From Alphaproteobacteria bacterium (GTDB taxonomy: Bacteria > Pseudomonadota > Alphaproteobacteria > Rhodospirillales > WMHbin7), in the NCBI GenBank assembly GCA_015231795.1, contig JADGAX010000001.1, forward strand, positions 496,001 to 560,000: 64,000 bases of DNA. The letters are read 5' to 3'. The notes under the pieces were generated by a model. It was not told where the DNA came from and ran no database searches. It saw only the letters and a list, made by a program, of their open reading frames with translations. Position numbers and translations under genes: made by a program. Positions 11,463 to 27,475 of this stretch are shown here, piece after piece (positions within the stretch are counted from its first letter, which is position 1; every line of letters starts with the position of its first letter).

Positions 11463-12250
11463 CCGGCGAACTCGACTTTCTTTGGCGCGCTGCATTGGCC
11501 GCCCTGGCCGTGGCCCTGATCGCAGGCCCGCTGGGTTGTTTCGTGGTCTGGCGGCGCATGGCCTATTTCGGCGACGCCTTGGCCCATGCCTCGATCCTGG
11601 GCCTCGCCCTGGGATTCATGCTGAAGATCGACTTGATGGCGGGCGTTCTGGCGGGCGGCATTCTGTTTGCCGTTCTGCTGTTTGCCTTGGAAAAACAAAA
11701 GCGCCTGCAAAGCGACACGCTGCTGGGCATTCTGGCCCATGGCTCGCTGGCTTTCGGCCTGTGCGCGCTGGCCTTGGCGCCTGCCCTGAACGTGGATCTG
11801 CAAAGCCTTCTGTTCGGCGACGTGCTGGCGGTGACGACCGGAGACATTCTGTGGGCATGGGGCGGCGGCGTGGTCGTTCTGGCGGGCTTGGCCATTCTGT
11901 GGCGGCCCTTGCTGTCGATGACGACGCATGCGGAACTGGCCCGGGTCGAAGGCATTGCCGTCGAACGCACGCGCCTTTTGTTCCTGATCTTGATGGCGTT
12001 GACGGTGGCGGTGGCGATGAAAGTGCTGGGCGTGCTGCTGATCACCGCCCTGCTGGTGATCCCACCCGCCAGCGCGCGGCCCTTCGCCCGTTCGCCCGAA
12101 CAGATGGCCGTGATCGCTTCGGCCATTGGAAGCGCTTCGGTGCTGGCCGGTCTTTACGCCTCGCTGATGATCGACCTGCCGGCCGGCCCCGCCATCGTCG
12201 CTGCCGCTACTCTATTCTTCGCGGCGTCGATGGCTTTCAAGCGGTCGTAA
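11459..12250 (+). CDS. znuB: Zinc ABC transporter permease
   Basis: A 263-residue inner-membrane permease of the ABC-3 family with about seven or eight hydrophobic helices. Typical blocks are [23 protein letters not shown] near the N-terminus and [20 protein letters not shown] in the second half. The ATG at 11459 overlaps the znuC stop (ATGA); the open frame upstream of it lies within znuC and is not real. It completes the ZnuABC importer. Confidence 0.95.
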
Positions 12251-12284
12251 CACTCCGCACATCTGGCCTTTTCTCTCCTTCGTC

Positions 12285-12307
12285 ATGGCCGGGCTTGACC
12301 CGGCCAT
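12285..12307. repeat. GGCCGGG palindrome, copy 1
   Basis: ATGGCCGGG and CCCGGCCAT arms around CTTGA. It is the first of seven copies in this window; the others are at 12839, 13204, 13246, 15367, 26091 and 26154. Copies 1, 2 and 6 share the frame TCATGGCCGGGCTTGACC. This one lies just after znuB, and it creates the spurious residues MAGSSPAMT upstream of the next minus-strand gene. Confidence 0.9.
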
Positions 12308-12327
12308 CCAAATGGATTTTGTGGATG

Positions 12328-12819
12328 CTACCCATCAAGTTTCGCTGCCAGTAAATCCCAACGATTTCGATATTGCTCTATGCTCCAACCACTAAAGTTT
12401 GAGTGCGGCGGCAAATGAACAGTCCGCACTGTATTTTCCTTGTGCTTTTGATTCATTTTTCCAGGCGTCTTCAACCAAAGTTCGTTAGCCTCTACGACAT
12501 TCTCGGCCATGACTTTGCTTGGAATAACGTAGAATTCAAAATTATCATTTGAATCGGTGTGGGGGATGCCTGCAAGAACCCAGAAGAAATTTGGACCGAA
12601 GTCGCGCTCGGCTTTGACGCCGACACTACAGGTTCGATTGCCTGGAACGAATGTCTTGACCTGGATATGTACAAACCTCGTACCCTCACGGTTGCTACAT
12701 AATATGTCCGTATTGGGCGTATTCCCAAGCGTCACAACGGCATAGAAACCACGCCTACATAGTTCACCTGCGACGAAGAACTGGCTGGCGTTCCCCCGAG
12801 CAACTTTATCTTTGCTCAT
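12328..12819 (-). CDS. Hypothetical protein with PD-(D/E)XK nuclease-like core
   Basis: A 163-residue protein starting at MSKDKVARGN. Codons further upstream read only the palindromic repeat. The arrangement FFVAGELCRRG ... NTPNTDIL ... RFVHIQVKTF matches the E - D - QxK order of the PD-(D/E)XK nuclease fold, with the Gln variant of the third motif. This is a motif reading, not a family match. GC content is clearly lower than in neighbouring genes, and it is bracketed by two direct copies of the palindrome, which suggests acquisition. A nuclease, or an inactive nucleic-acid-binding relative, is the best guess. Confidence 0.55.
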   Translation of the reverse strand: MSKDKVARGNASQFFVAGELCRRGFYAVVTLGNTPNTDILCSNREGTRFVHIQVKTFVPGNRTCSVGVKAERDFGPNFFWVLAGIPHTDSNDNFEFYVIPSKVMAENVVEANELWLKTPGKMNQKHKENTVRTVHLPPHSNFSGWSIEQYRNRWDLLAAKLDG

Positions 12820-12838
12820 GCATCCCCCTATTTTTGTC

Positions 12839-12861
12839 ATGGCCGGGCTTGACCCGGCCAT
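12839..12861. repeat. GGCCGGG palindrome, copy 2
   Basis: ATGGCCGGG and CCCGGCCAT arms around CTTGA, same orientation as copy 1, sitting 46 bp before the GIY-YIG gene. Together with the oppositely oriented copy 3 at 13204 it brackets that gene as an inverted pair. Confidence 0.9.
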
Positions 12862-12907
12862 CCACGCAACAGTAGCGAACCCAGAGGCTTCAGGCTACGC
12901 TCTCGGA

Positions 12908-13195
12908 ATGGCAGGCGGCTGGATTTACATCATGACGAACAAGCCGAACGGAACGCTCTATGTCGGAGTTACGAACAATCTTGCTCGTAGAGCTTGGGAA
13001 CACAGGGAAGGCGTAGCTGACAGCTTTACGAAACGCTACAGCCTAAGAAGGCTTGTCTATGCCGAAAGGCATGACGATATCCGCACGGCCTTGCAGCGAG
13101 AAAAGAATATCAAGCACTGGCCGCGAGCATGGAAAGTCAAATTGATTCTGGATGTCAATCCTGATTGGAAAGATCTGCACGACGAACTAGCTTGA
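12908..13195 (+). CDS. GIY-YIG nuclease superfamily protein
   Basis: A 95-residue single-domain protein of the UvrC N-terminal/YhbQ-like group. The start used is MAGGWIYIMTN at 12908; earlier codons read palindrome sequence. Motifs: WIYIM and LYVGVTNN for the GIY-YIG strands, ARRAWEHR with the catalytic-type Arg, and LQREKNIKHWPRAWKVKLI with the metal-binding-type Glu. Enzymes of this fold make single-strand nicks or double-strand cuts. The gene is bracketed by inverted GGCCGGG palindromes (12839 and 13204), with little other flanking sequence. Confidence 0.85.
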   Translation: MAGGWIYIMTNKPNGTLYVGVTNNLARRAWEHREGVADSFTKRYSLRRLVYAERHDDIRTALQREKNIKHWPRAWKVKLILDVNPDWKDLHDELA

Positions 13196-13203
13196 TGGCG
13201 TGG

Positions 13204-13268
13204 ATGGCCGGGTCAAGCCCGGCCATGACTTGGGGACAGAGGAAGATGGCCGGGATATTTCCGGCCAT
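13204..13268. repeat. GGCCGGG palindromes, copies 3 and 4
   Basis: Copy 3 (13204-13226) has the ATGGCCGGG/CCCGGCCAT arms with loop TCAAG, so it is reversed relative to copies 1 and 2. Copy 4 (13246-13268) has arms ATGGCCGG/CCGGCCAT with an AT-rich loop. They lie between the GIY-YIG gene and the metC-like stop codon and could also act as a bidirectional transcription stop. Confidence 0.88.
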
Positions 13269-13278
13269 GACGTTGTGA

Positions 13279-14457
13279 TCAAATCCTTCCGAACGCCTGT
13301 TCCAGATCGGCGATCAAGTCGTCGGCGTCTTCCAGTCCGGCATGCAGGCGAATGGTCAGCCCGCCCGGATCCCAACCGGTGACCGTGCGCTTGATGCCCG
13401 GATCGGCGGGAATGGCCAGACTTTCGAAACCGCCCCAGGAATAGCCAAGCCCGAACAGTTGAAGCGCGTCCAGAAAGGCGTCGACGTCTTTTTTGTCCTT
13501 CGTCTTCATCACGAAAGCGAACAGGCCGCAACTGCCTGAAAAATCGCGCCGCCACAATTTGTGGCCGGGATCGTCCTGCAGGGCGGGATGCAGCACGCGC
13601 AGAACCTCGGGCCTGCGCTTCAGCCAGGTCGCCAACAAGATCGCCGTTTCCTGATGGCGTTCAAGGCGCACGGGCAAGGTGCGCAGGCCGCGCAGGGCCA
13701 GATAAGCCTCTTCCGCCCCTACGCCCAACCCAAGTGCTGCGGCGCGCATCTTGATGATCTGCCACAAATCGGCATTGGCGCAGGTGACCATTCCCATCAT
13801 GGCGTCGGCATGACCCACGATATATTTCGTCGCCGCCTGCACCGACAAATCGACGCCCTTCTCGAAGGGCTTGAAGAACAATGGCGTGGCCCAGGTATTG
13901 TCCATTGCCACCACGACGCCCCTTTTGTGGGCGGCCGCCGAGATGGCCGGAATGTCCTGGATTTCGAAGGTGAGCGAACCCGGCGCCTCCACGAACACCA
14001 GTTTGGTGTTGGGACGGATGAGATCGGCGATGCCCGCCCCGATCAGGGGATCGTAATAAGTGGTCTCGATGCCGTTCGCCTTTAAATGCCCGTCGCAATA
14101 GCGCCGCGTCGGATGGTAAATGGAATCGGTCACCAACACATGGTCGCCATGTTTCAGGAAACTTTCCAACACCAGCGTGATGGCGGCCAGACCTGAAGGC
14201 GCTGCGACAGAACGATAGCCGCCTTCCAAGGCGCAAACAGCCTCTTCCAGGGCGAAGGTGGTGGGGGTACCGAAACGCCCGTAGGTCATGCCTTCGAAGG
14301 GACGGGTTCCCCGTTCCTCCATGGTGGCGACATCGGGATAGAGAATGGTCGAGACGTGATAGACCGGCGGATTGACGGCCCCCTGATGCGCTTCGACCGC
14401 GCGACCGGCGTGAACGGCAATGGTCGCTGGCTTTTTCTTTCTCACAAGATCGCTCAT
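13279..14457 (-). CDS. metC: Cystathionine beta-lyase (Cys/Met metabolism PLP enzyme)
   Basis: A 392-residue PLP enzyme. Conserved features: YHVSTILYPDVATME, TYGRFGTPTTFALE, VFVEAPGSLTFEIQDIP, AMDNTWATPLFFKP and the PLP lysine K211 in QAATKYIVGHADAMMG. Family members split cystathionine to homocysteine, pyruvate and ammonia. MetC is the closest subtype by motif, but related lyases cannot be excluded. The ATG at 14457 overlaps the sseA stop (ATGA), so the two are translationally coupled. Open codons upstream belong to sseA in another frame. Confidence 0.88.
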   Translation of the reverse strand: MSDLVRKKKPATIAVHAGRAVEAHQGAVNPPVYHVSTILYPDVATMEERGTRPFEGMTYGRFGTPTTFALEEAVCALEGGYRSVAAPSGLAAITLVLESFLKHGDHVLVTDSIYHPTRRYCDGHLKANGIETTYYDPLIGAGIADLIRPNTKLVFVEAPGSLTFEIQDIPAISAAAHKRGVVVAMDNTWATPLFFKPFEKGVDLSVQAATKYIVGHADAMMGMVTCANADLWQIIKMRAAALGLGVGAEEAYLALRGLRTLPVRLERHQETAILLATWLKRRPEVLRVLHPALQDDPGHKLWRRDFSGSCGLFAFVMKTKDKKDVDAFLDALQLFGLGYSWGGFESLAIPADPGIKRTVTGWDPGGLTIRLHAGLEDADDLIADLEQAFGRI

Positions 14458-25446: not shown

Positions 25447-25980
25447 ATGAAACAACCTCGCAAAGCGACCCCGAAAAGCCTGGAAAACGCCGCCATCCAT
25501 TATCTGGAGCGCTTTTCCACCTCGCGCGCCAACTTAAAACGCGTGCTGATGAACCGTGTCGCCCGCTCGGCCAAGGCCCACGACACCGACCCTCATGAGG
25601 GTCTGGCCTGGATCGAGGCCTTGCTGGATAAGCTGGAGGGGCTGGGCTACCTGAACGACGCCGCCTATGCCGAGATCAAGGCCGAAAGCATGAACCGTAG
25701 GGGCAAACCCAGCAATCAGGTGCGCTGGGCGCTGCGCATGAAGGGGGTGGACCAGGACACGGCCGAGGCGGCGATGACCAAATTGTCCGACGAGTTGGAG
25801 GGGAATGCCGACCGCGCCGCCGCCCTTGCCTTCGCCCGCAAGAAACGCCTGGGGCCTTATCGACCCGACGACCTGCGCGAAGCCCACAAGACCAAGGATA
25901 TCCAAGCCCTGGCGCGGGCCGGTTTCGGCTGGGACTTGGCCCGGGAGATTATCGAGGGGGATGGGGAGATTGGTGACTGA
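25447..25980 (+). CDS. recX: RecX-family protein (RecA regulator)
   Basis: A 177-residue alpha-helical protein. RecX-type three-helix repeats are visible: AAIHYLERFSTSRANLKRVLMNRVAR, LEGLGYLNDAAYAEIKAESMNRRGKPSNQVRWALRMKGVD and an Arg/Lys-rich third unit. RecX binds RecA filaments and modulates recombination. recA is not adjacent. The 99 bp upstream contain an inverted repeat of TTCAGCAGTC. The gene ends 9 bp before a remnant of a small ORF. Confidence 0.8.
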   Translation: MKQPRKATPKSLENAAIHYLERFSTSRANLKRVLMNRVARSAKAHDTDPHEGLAWIEALLDKLEGLGYLNDAAYAEIKAESMNRRGKPSNQVRWALRMKGVDQDTAEAAMTKLSDELEGNADRAAALAFARKKRLGPYRPDDLREAHKTKDIQALARAGFGWDLAREIIEGDGEIGD

Positions 25981-25988
25981 AAGGGCTA

Positions 25989-26254
25989 TGCTTAACGACG
26001 ACATCCAAATCGGGGTAGCGCCCAAGCGCCATATCCACCAGTTGGCTCCTCGACGCTGGAAATGGATTTTGTCGGATGTATTAATCCGTCATGGCCGGGC
26101 TTGACCCGGCCATCCACAATTTTATTGCAAGGCCACCAGAAGACAAGGCGTGGATGCCCGGCTCAAGGCCGGGCATGACGATGCGTTGAAAGGTTGGCAA
26201 CTCCACATGAAACGTCGAAGAGTCCACAAGTTGTTCACGGCTGAACAGGCTCAT
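25989..26254 (-). pseudogene. Small-ORF copy split by a palindrome-bearing insert
   Basis: The intact 59-residue ORF at 26704-26883 starts MSLFSREQLVDMALERYPDLD. Here its first 11 codons (MSLFSREQLVD) are at 26254-26222, and the next part (QLVDMALGRYPDLDVVVK) reappears at 26044-25989. About 176 bp lies between, carrying palindrome copies 6 and 7. The QLVD codons occur on both sides, like an imperfect target duplication. The C-terminal part of the ORF is lost. This is a disrupted gene copy. Confidence 0.7.
26045..26220. mobile_element. Insert with two internal GGCCGGG-family palindromes (copies 6 and 7)
   Basis: This segment interrupts a small ORF. Copy 6 (26091-26113) is ATGGCCGGG/CCCGGCCAT. 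Copy 7 (26154-26176) is ATGCCCGGC/GCCGGGCAT, reversed in orientation and with a compensated stem. The segment ends show CTCCTCGACGCT at the left and, reversed, CTCTTCGACGTT at the right, a 10 of 12 imperfect terminal inverted repeat. Paired palindromes resemble the rhizobial intergenic mosaic elements (RIME) in layout. No transposase is encoded. Confidence 0.6.
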
Positions 26255-26255
26255 C

Positions 26256-26711
26256 TCACTTCCCCCCTGTCTTAATGCTTGCGGCAATCTGATCAGATTC
26301 GAAAATTACTTTCCCATCTGGAAACAGTTCAGGATACTTGCCGTTAAAGGTGGCGCTTCTGGTAATTCCCTCAACAACCAACAATTTGAACCTTGCGATG
26401 TCGTAATCGCTCGGCTCGCGACCCTTCGCTTTAGTAAATTTTTCAACAAAATCTTTTTCTTCAATTTTCGGAATAACGAAAAGAACAGGAACATGCCGCT
26501 CATAGGGTTCGCCAGTAATTGTGTTTTCGAATAGTTTTTTTTCTTTGAGCATATTTACCTCAAATTTATATTCGAAATCTCCAAGGCAGTACCTAAAGAT
26601 AATGCCATTAACTGTATCTGGAGAACCCCGCACACTGCGGAGACTTGCCCCAGCTTCTTTGTCGTACGACATATGGGCTTTTTCATCATACTCGATCATG
26701 TCGTCACTCAT
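26256..26711 (-). CDS. Hypothetical protein, intact copy of a duplicated AT-rich family
   Basis: A 151-residue protein. The ATG at 26711 has AGGAG 6 nt upstream (an adjacent ATG at 26714 is possible). Features: an acidic start (SDDMIEYDEKAHMSYDKE), a beta-rich middle (FEYKFEVNMLKEKKLFENTITGEP), then RHVPVLFVIPKIEEKDFVEKFTKAKGREPSDYDIARFKLLVVEG. No known domain was recognised. GC is well below neighbours. A second copy lies 0.6 kb upstream with a frameshift. It overlaps the preceding 59-residue ORF by 8 bp, so the two look co-translated. Confidence 0.65.
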   Translation of the reverse strand: MSDDMIEYDEKAHMSYDKEAGASLRSVRGSPDTVNGIIFRYCLGDFEYKFEVNMLKEKKLFENTITGEPYERHVPVLFVIPKIEEKDFVEKFTKAKGREPSDYDIARFKLLVVEGITRSATFNGKYPELFPDGKVIFESDQIAASIKTGGK

Positions 26712-26883
26712 CATGCTCTCCTGCAGCGGAACGCGCGTCGATTCCATCAAGAACTCTGCCAAGCGCGTTGGGGCTTGATGTATCGAGATACGAATCCCTG
26801 ATGGCCTGCTTAACGACTGCATCCAGGTCGGGGTAGCGCTCAAGCGCCATATCCACAAGTTGTTCGCGGCTGAACAGACTCAT
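26704..26883 (-). CDS. Small ORF upstream of the duplicated-family gene
   Basis: A 59-residue protein from the ATG at 26883, with GGGGGG 7 nt upstream. It reads MSLFSREQLVDMALERYPDLD and continues as a mainly helical, acidic protein ending SAAGEHDE. It overlaps the start of the 26256-26711 gene by 8 bp. A second copy, split by an insert, lies at 25989-26254. Preservation of this ORF in two places and the overlap argue that it is translated. Function unknown; a small partner of the larger protein is possible. Confidence 0.55.
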   Translation of the reverse strand: MSLFSREQLVDMALERYPDLDAVVKQAIRDSYLDTSSPNALGRVLDGIDARSAAGEHDE

Positions 26884-26884
26884 G

Positions 26885-27339
26885 TCACTTCCCCCCTGTC
26901 TTAATGCTTGCGGCAATCTGATCAGATTCGAAAATTACTTTCCCGTTTGGGAACAGCTGCGGATGCTTGCCGTTATAGGTGGCGCTTCTTGTAATTCCCT
27001 CAACAACCAGCAATTTGAACCTCGCGATGTCGTAATCGCTCGGCTCGCGACCCATCGCTTTAGTAAATTTTTCAACAAACCTCTTTTCTTCTCTTTTCGG
27101 AATGACGAAGAGAACTGGAACATGCCGCTCATAGGGTTCTCCTGTAATTCTATTCTTGAATATTTTTTTTCATCTAAGAAATTAATTTCAAAGTTAAACG
27201 TAAGCCCTTCACGTTGATACGTGTAAATTCTTGCGTTCACGCTATCTGGAGAGCCTCGCTGTCCGCAGAATCCCGCGCCAATTTCCCTGTCATACGACAT
27301 ATGGGTCTTTTCATCATACTCAATCTTGTCGTCACTCAT
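26885..27339 (-). pseudogene. Frameshifted copy of the duplicated AT-rich family gene
   Basis: It starts SDDKIEYDEKTHMSYDREIGAG like the intact copy at 26256-26711, then loses frame at an eight-A run (T run 27163-27170 on the plus strand). The intact copy has one extra base after its run. Restoring one base gives RITGEPYERHVPVLFVIPKRE and then GREPSDYDIARFKLLVVEG up to the same stop context. Identity is highest in the 3' half. It may be dead, or expressed at low level by slippage on the A run. Confidence 0.75.
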
Positions 27340-27362
27340 CATGCTCTCCTGCGAGTGAAAAC

Positions 27363-27449
27363 GGGGGCAAGTCTTGATCGTTTCCTATTCTTGCGACTTC
27401 GCCGATTCTGTCCATGCGGGAAATTAGGAATCAATCAAGACCCGCCCCC
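27363..27449. mobile_element. 87 bp miniature element or large hairpin with 28 bp imperfect inverted repeats
   Basis: The left arm begins GGGGGCAAGTCTTGATCG and includes TTCCTA. The right arm, read in reverse, is GGGGGCGGGTCTTGATTG with TTCCTA. About 23 of 28 positions pair across a 31 bp centre. It lies just upstream of the frameshifted gene copy. It could be a solo MITE, an insertion-sequence remnant or a terminator-like hairpin. No target-site duplication is evident. Confidence 0.5.
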
Positions 27450-27475
27450 CGAATCTTCCAGCAATCACGCAAGCC

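Follow-up and report, generated by a model that had tools for sequence, protein, structure and literature searches.

Does the inverted pair of palindromes that encloses a small GIY-YIG nuclease gene mark a self-moving unit, and could the nuclease be a dedicated partner of these palindromes, for which no enzyme has been reported? The palindromes are CGTC-type REPs, and the survey that defined them states that they "apparently lack a dedicated transposase" (Di Nocera et al. 2013; PMC3733652). The original prediction, made from the sequence of a 64,000-nucleotide stretch of an alphaproteobacterial genome (hereafter, the window), was that the GIY-YIG unit could be a full mobile element, by analogy to RAYT transposases and the REPs they mobilize and to GIY-YIG enzymes that drive intron homing, and that a second, short inverted pair in the window could be its non-autonomous form. 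The observation underlying this prediction is confirmed, and the arrangement is more general than a single window could show, recurring across many bacteria. Its interpretation is only partly supported: the palindromes belong to this GIY-YIG clade and blocks are present or absent at orthologous sites, whereas movement by the nuclease is inferred and the role proposed for the short pair is not supported. The features of the window that bear on these questions are as follows.

12281..12310 (+), CGTC-type REP, outer left, near the left edge of the block missing in relatives
12328..12861 (-), accessory ORF of 177 aa with its start codon inside a REP and no Pfam or PADLOC hit, lying between two REPs in direct orientation
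12835..12864 (+), CGTC-type REP, left partner of the GIY-YIG unit, tag outward
12908..13195 (+), GIY-YIG nuclease gene, 95 aa
13201..13230 (-), CGTC-type REP, right partner of the GIY-YIG unit, tag outward
13243..13272 (-), imperfect REP, outer right, near the right edge of the block missing in relatives
12253..13280 (no strand), segment absent in a congener (genome G242), which has 8 bp in its place
26087..26116 (+), REP type A of the short pair, core of a separate repeat and not shown to belong to the GIY-YIG unit
26151..26180 (-), REP type B of the short pair
26044..26225 (no strand), repeat of about 182 bp with terminal inverted repeats around the short REP pair, limits read by eye

The 95-residue protein has GIY-YIG as its only Pfam match (PF01541, E 2.4e-14; 53.8 bits against a cut-off of 22.6). 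The flanking palindromes fit the description of CGTC REPs in having a CGTC tag, a 9-bp stem starting with AT, a 5-base loop and a CCA tail (8–9-bp stems and 4–5-base loops define the type), and both fold as single-stranded DNA into a hairpin with a 9-bp stem (z -4.4 and -4.5). A general CGTC-REP finder detected six REPs in the window against 0.33 per shuffled window (three shuffles). The exact palindrome TGGCCGGGN5CCCGGCCA occurs at 27 places in the 3.63-Mb genome and the reversed control pattern at 0. The genome has three PF01541 hits, which are this gene, a 629-codon frame that is UvrC by its size, and a frameshifted relative on contig C5 that also lies in an inverted REP pair with the same 365-bp spacing.

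To determine whether this arrangement exceeds chance, we took the best 80 of 394 relatives from the genome collection, chosen by protein only. The longest exact inverted repeat between the 150-bp flanks is 14 bp or more at 50 of these 80 loci, while 0 of 800 same-size intervals in the same loci reach 14. With mismatches allowed, 52 of 80 loci exceed the best of the 800 controls, and 37 of these 52 measure 353–408 bp from outer edge to outer edge. Twelve of the 80 loci are one orthologous locus, eleven of them named Bradyrhizobium. REP density is 8.2 per kb within 100 bp of the gene and about 0.1 per kb beyond 1 kb. Over the related set and a class sample together, 80 of 144 genes with flanks long enough have a REP pair with tags outward within 200 bp, compared with 1 of 823 other ORFs and 0 of 214 other small ORFs of the same loci (Fisher p 1e-75, rows not independent). 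In this control, the ORFs are non-overlapping frames picked by script, and REPs within 400 bp of a GIY-YIG gene were left out so that neighbors are not credited with its REPs. Eleven of the 144 genes have the reverse tag orientation on both sides. Absence of enrichment had been named beforehand as the outcome that would refute the prediction, and enrichment was found.

Of 240 genomes drawn evenly from the class, 69 have the family. We examined 69 of the 120 matches outside this genome, from 46 genomes, comprising the 29 best matches plus hand-picked ones with multi-copy genomes among them. Of these 69 genes, 49 have a REP within 200 bp, 25 have the pair, and 30 have a flank inverted-repeat score of 20 or more, against 1 of 460 control intervals; 32 of 46 genomes have the pair or such a repeat by at least one copy, and 42 of 46 have that or any REP. 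The remaining 20 of 69 genes have no CGTC REP within 200 bp by the finder, although several of these show other flank palindromes. In a phylum sample, 76 of 299 genomes are positive, and of the 27 newly fetched loci 22 have a REP and 12 have the pair; of the 16 loci outside the class, 15 have a REP. Among relatives from the order, 13 of 18 rows have a REP and 7 of 18 have the pair, with six weaker rows left out and two genes included twice.

The association is specific to this clade. In class genomes, 0 of 20 UvrC-sized hits and 0 of 20 other lone PF01541 genes have a CGTC REP within 200 bp. One of the latter 20 was flanked by another palindrome, and its clade, a sister GIY-YIG clade (alignment A5; 25 of 240 class genomes at E 1e-15), shows a CATCCTGAG-type motif on at least one side at 19 of 30 loci, a raw count without a chance level, and a flank inverted-repeat score of 20 or more at 10 of 30 loci, against 0 of 83 controls; 2 of 32 loci had flanks too short. 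Five of the 30 are the seeds, some chosen for their flanks, and without them the counts are 14 of 25 and 7 of 25; one of the 30 (locus L376) is also a member of the first family. At loci L166, L172, L352, L358 and L368, the palindrome flanking the sister clade is of the CCTCATCCTGAG...CGAAGGATGAGG type.

REP variants match both within loci and to the protein. Stem and loop of the left and right REP agree at 0.89 within a locus (40 of 96 identical) and at 0.61 between loci (3.3% identical); within one genome, pairs are few (5 within, mean 0.86; 8 between, mean 0.81). On a tree of the proteins, loop type (5-base CTTGW-like against 4-base) needs 14 changes for 131 genes, while 300 shuffles need 32.6 on average and never under 27; in a subset of 37, it needs 7 against 11.5, minimum 8. 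Shared ancestry of genome and gene can add to this match. Genomes with the alphaproteobacterial REP pattern carry the family in 19 of 24 cases and those without it in 50 of 216 (Fisher p 9e-8), and thus 5 of 24 genomes with the pattern lack the family. Conversely, the genome G123 has ten family members but only 8 REPs, of 8 sequences, in the 298.5 kb sampled, and no large REP population for each member was found there.

In the plasmid collection, which holds some records of chromosome size, 34 records have a relative. Of 16 fetched, flanking CGTC-type repeats are seen in N. gonorrhoeae (nine within 600 bp; the relative lies in a dense array of CGTC-1, dRS3-like REPs), Sphingobium (3 records), Aeromonas, Azospirillum, Shinella, S. 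meliloti and, by eye, Novosphingobium. Other GTCAT-type palindromes are seen, by eye, in Spirosoma (Bacteroidota) and Planktothrix (Cyanobacteria), and the Planktothrix GIY-YIG gene, with GTCATTCTGAG-type repeats, lies between an MmeI-type restriction gene and DISARM drmA. Photobacterium has REPs on one side only, from about 180 bp downstream, Sinorhizobium C101 has other repeats, and two Rhizobium records (one locus) and Subdoligranulum show none. Locus L063 has an array of alternating REPs upstream of the gene, and locus L049 apparently has two GIY-YIG units in opposite orientation about 850 bp apart. A search of phages gave 0 of 50,697 records, while 19 viral contigs, which may be viral or host pieces, carry relatives, 15 of 19 with a REP within 250 bp.

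Does the unit move? Relatives lack it at the same site in three cases. At the window site, congener G242 has the two neighbor genes (by eye a ZnuB-like permease and a MetC-like lyase) with 8 bp where the window has 1028 bp; of the other genomes compared, G240 and family member G243 have 55 and 159 bp between the aligned parts, and in G241 the two sides are on different contigs. The missing stretch holds the block from the outer REP at 12281 to the outer REP at 13272, plus 28 and 8 bp, so the block, a nested set of REPs with a second ORF, was probably gained in this lineage. This second ORF is not standard cargo of the unit, as homologs are found in 2 of 240 class genomes, its own included, and two loci with relatives have no REP in 3.5 and 3.0 kb. 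At the C5 site, G242 has REP-GIY-REP alone while the window genome has about 768 bp more, with a pYEATS-domain membrane protein gene (L003:662-1444) between directly repeated REPs beside the decayed GIY-YIG copy. Azospirillum lipoferum 4B has the unit between sufB and sufC, whereas A. ramasamyi, A. oryzae and B510 do not; eight more Azospirillum records match both sides but not the middle, by search matches without alignment. Seven Sphingobium plasmid records have the 383-bp unit between fnrL and a regulator gene and four do not (eight of the eleven were aligned). Two of the four have a lone double-tagged palindrome, exact in TYG64 (L303:884-912) and with two changes in TYG74 (L302), equal to the left half of one REP joined to the right half of the other and most simply explained by a deletion between the two 5' stem arms of the unit. 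Such double-tagged forms are rare, since among the 382 palindromes with tag or tail on both sides in the loci examined, 377 are tag-tail, 3 tag-tag and 2 tail-tail (overlapping loci not removed).

These gains or losses are not base-precise, because the bases at the junctions are diverged. Four syntenic 50-kb Sphingobium stretches and seven groups of orthologous or related loci gave no clean recent gain. Over 61 GIY-YIG units and 93 REP dimers, there is no direct flank repeat above chance for 1–10 bases, and hence no target duplication was found; bases before CGTC are rich in pyrimidines. In Bradyrhizobium, the unit is one vertically kept locus.

In an alignment of the protein, eighteen columns are invariant in 33 rows, among them Y18, R28, H32, E65 and N84, while Y7 is nearly so; the Tyr, Arg, Glu and Asn positions match catalytic residues of GIY-YIG enzymes. 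dN/dS is 0.01–0.09 in the 25 of 28 Bradyrhizobium pairs for which it could be computed, a rough estimate because many have dS over 1. The nearest solved relatives by sequence are UPF0213/lone GIY-YIG proteins (PDB 1zg2, 1ywl), which were solved as hypothetical proteins. An AlphaFold2 model (pLDDT 88.6) is closest to the UPF0213 protein 1zg2 (E 7e-4), followed by Slx1 chains (E 0.017 and weaker). Slx1 cuts branched DNA, which, we infer, would suit a REP cruciform.

Is the short pair a non-autonomous form of this unit? The pair noted at 26091 and 26154 is real, with a 34-bp spacer, and of 20 further REP sites of this genome, 19 hold an opposite pair. However, of 16 pairs with a 20–40-bp spacer that were aligned, ten, the window pair included, lie, as judged by eye, inside a longer repeat with ends like GGCTCTTCGACG, which in the window has terminal inverted repeats (GGCTCTTCGACGYTGGAAGTGG...) and, by eye only, a possible imperfect 8–9-bp duplication beside it. 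Similar nesting is reported for CGTC-1 dimers of H. neapolitanus (PMC3733652). Moreover, the short pair joins two different REP types, whereas the GIY-YIG unit uses one. The pair at 26087 has therefore moved, if at all, as part of that repeat, and calling it the non-autonomous form is not supported. The pair lies in a stretch of the window (25949-27475) that does not align to G242, so that G242 provides no empty site.

Altogether, we favor a model, to which we assign a probability of about 0.6, in which the REP-GIY-YIG-REP block is a compact unit whose single-domain nuclease is the dedicated partner of CGTC-type REPs, as RAYT transposases are of GTAG REPs. What our analyses establish is the specific, oriented and clade-restricted flanking, the agreement of left and right REP variants, presence or absence at orthologous sites, and purifying selection on the protein in one genus. 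We infer, rather than demonstrate, that the nuclease recognizes the REP hairpin or cruciform next to the CGTC tag and nicks or cuts there, and that repair or replication then copies the REP, a REP pair, the whole unit or a REP-bounded neighbor gene elsewhere without target duplication; recognition of the REP is inferred from the matching of REP variants, and mobilization by the nuclease is plausible but only inferred. Some copies are kept vertically, as is said of RAYTs.

Comparison with known systems places the unit closest to RAYT (TnpA-REP) transposases with their GTAG REPs, REPINs and REPtrons, with which it shares one small nuclease gene between inverted REPs of the genome's own type, an asymmetric tag on a GC-rich hairpin, and REP pairs elsewhere in the genome. 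It differs in that the enclosed gene encodes a GIY-YIG protein, with GIY-YIG proteins as best fold matches, instead of an HUH (Y1) tyrosine transposase, and in that the tag is CGTC or a variant and not GTAG; REP binding and transposition are, for this unit, inferred. The REPs themselves belong with the CGTC REPs (CGTC-1 to CGTC-4; dRS3 of Neisseria, RPE-4 and RPE-6 of Rickettsia), which also occur mostly as opposite pairs. GIY-YIG homing endonucleases likewise reside in small selfish-looking units, but here only the GIY-YIG domain is present in 95 residues, the ends are palindromic, and no Rfam family matches 12000-13600 at E 0.1. MITEs mobilized by DDE transposases share short inverted ends, as in the pairs of REPs, but the gene inside this unit is a GIY-YIG nuclease and direct flank matches are at chance. 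In an open-licence library without preprints and with most subscription papers missing, searches linking GIY-YIG to palindromic or REP sequences or RAYTs, CGTC REPs to transposases since 2014, palindromic repeats to mobility, and inverted repeats to Alphaproteobacteria yielded no listing showing this link (papers encountered include PMC10928387, PMC12306157, PMC6006769 and PMC7318869), searches on repetitive extragenic palindromic sequences, dRS3, UPF0213 and Rickettsia palindromic elements returned nothing, and REPIN returned only papers that by title concern restriction enzymes.

Among alternatives, the one that survives best, although we consider it unlikely, is that the protein is a host-kept, structure-specific nuclease that trims or resolves REP cruciforms without spreading them, the flanking REPs serving autoregulation or being substrates left beside it. 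Vertical inheritance and purifying selection in Bradyrhizobium, the Slx1 fold matches, and the proximity of REPs to start and stop agree with such a guardian, but presence or absence of the block between relatives, up to ten family members in one genome, and decayed copies look like an element and not a housekeeping gene. Less likely still is homing, in which the nuclease cuts REPs or REP-like palindromes at other places and the unit, or a neighbor gene between direct REPs, is copied in by recombination with REP homology. In line with this, both GIY-YIG loci of this genome have an extra gene between two directly repeated REPs, which the congener lacks at the C5 site, and the lone Sphingobium palindromes occupy the place of the unit; however, these palindromes are very rare in form and as easily a loss scar, and no Rfam family, hence no known intron, is at the locus. 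Passive hitch-hiking, in which an unknown, unrelated transposase spreads CGTC REPs and the gene was caught between a pair, is very unlikely: REPs do occur in genomes without the family and REP pairs sit inside a repeat with other terminal repeats, but clade specificity and the match of loop type to phylogeny do not follow from capture. That the REPs act only as transcription terminators or mRNA-stabilizing hairpins, although REPs are described as lying mainly downstream of genes (PMC3733652), is disfavored by the absence of such pairs at the other small ORFs of the same loci (0 of 214) and because terminators need not match each other or the protein's clade.

We speculate, as a possibility slightly less likely than not, that these units represent a whole class of bacterial mobile elements in which a lone, single-domain GIY-YIG nuclease mobilizes hairpin-forming palindromes, one clade with CGTC REPs (Pseudomonadota, with possible Bacteroidota and cyanobacterial relatives) and a sister clade with CATCCTGAG-type palindromes, each co-evolving with its repeat and sometimes carrying neighbor genes between REPs. 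CGTC REPs are widespread, occurring in five phyla, yet the survey that described them found no enzyme for them and left open whether RAYTs or other transposases move them (PMC3733652), and a specific candidate makes this question testable. If the model is correct, two unrelated nuclease folds, HUH and GIY-YIG, would have become partners of REP hairpins, and this would suggest a role for many genes now annotated only as "GIY-YIG nuclease family protein".
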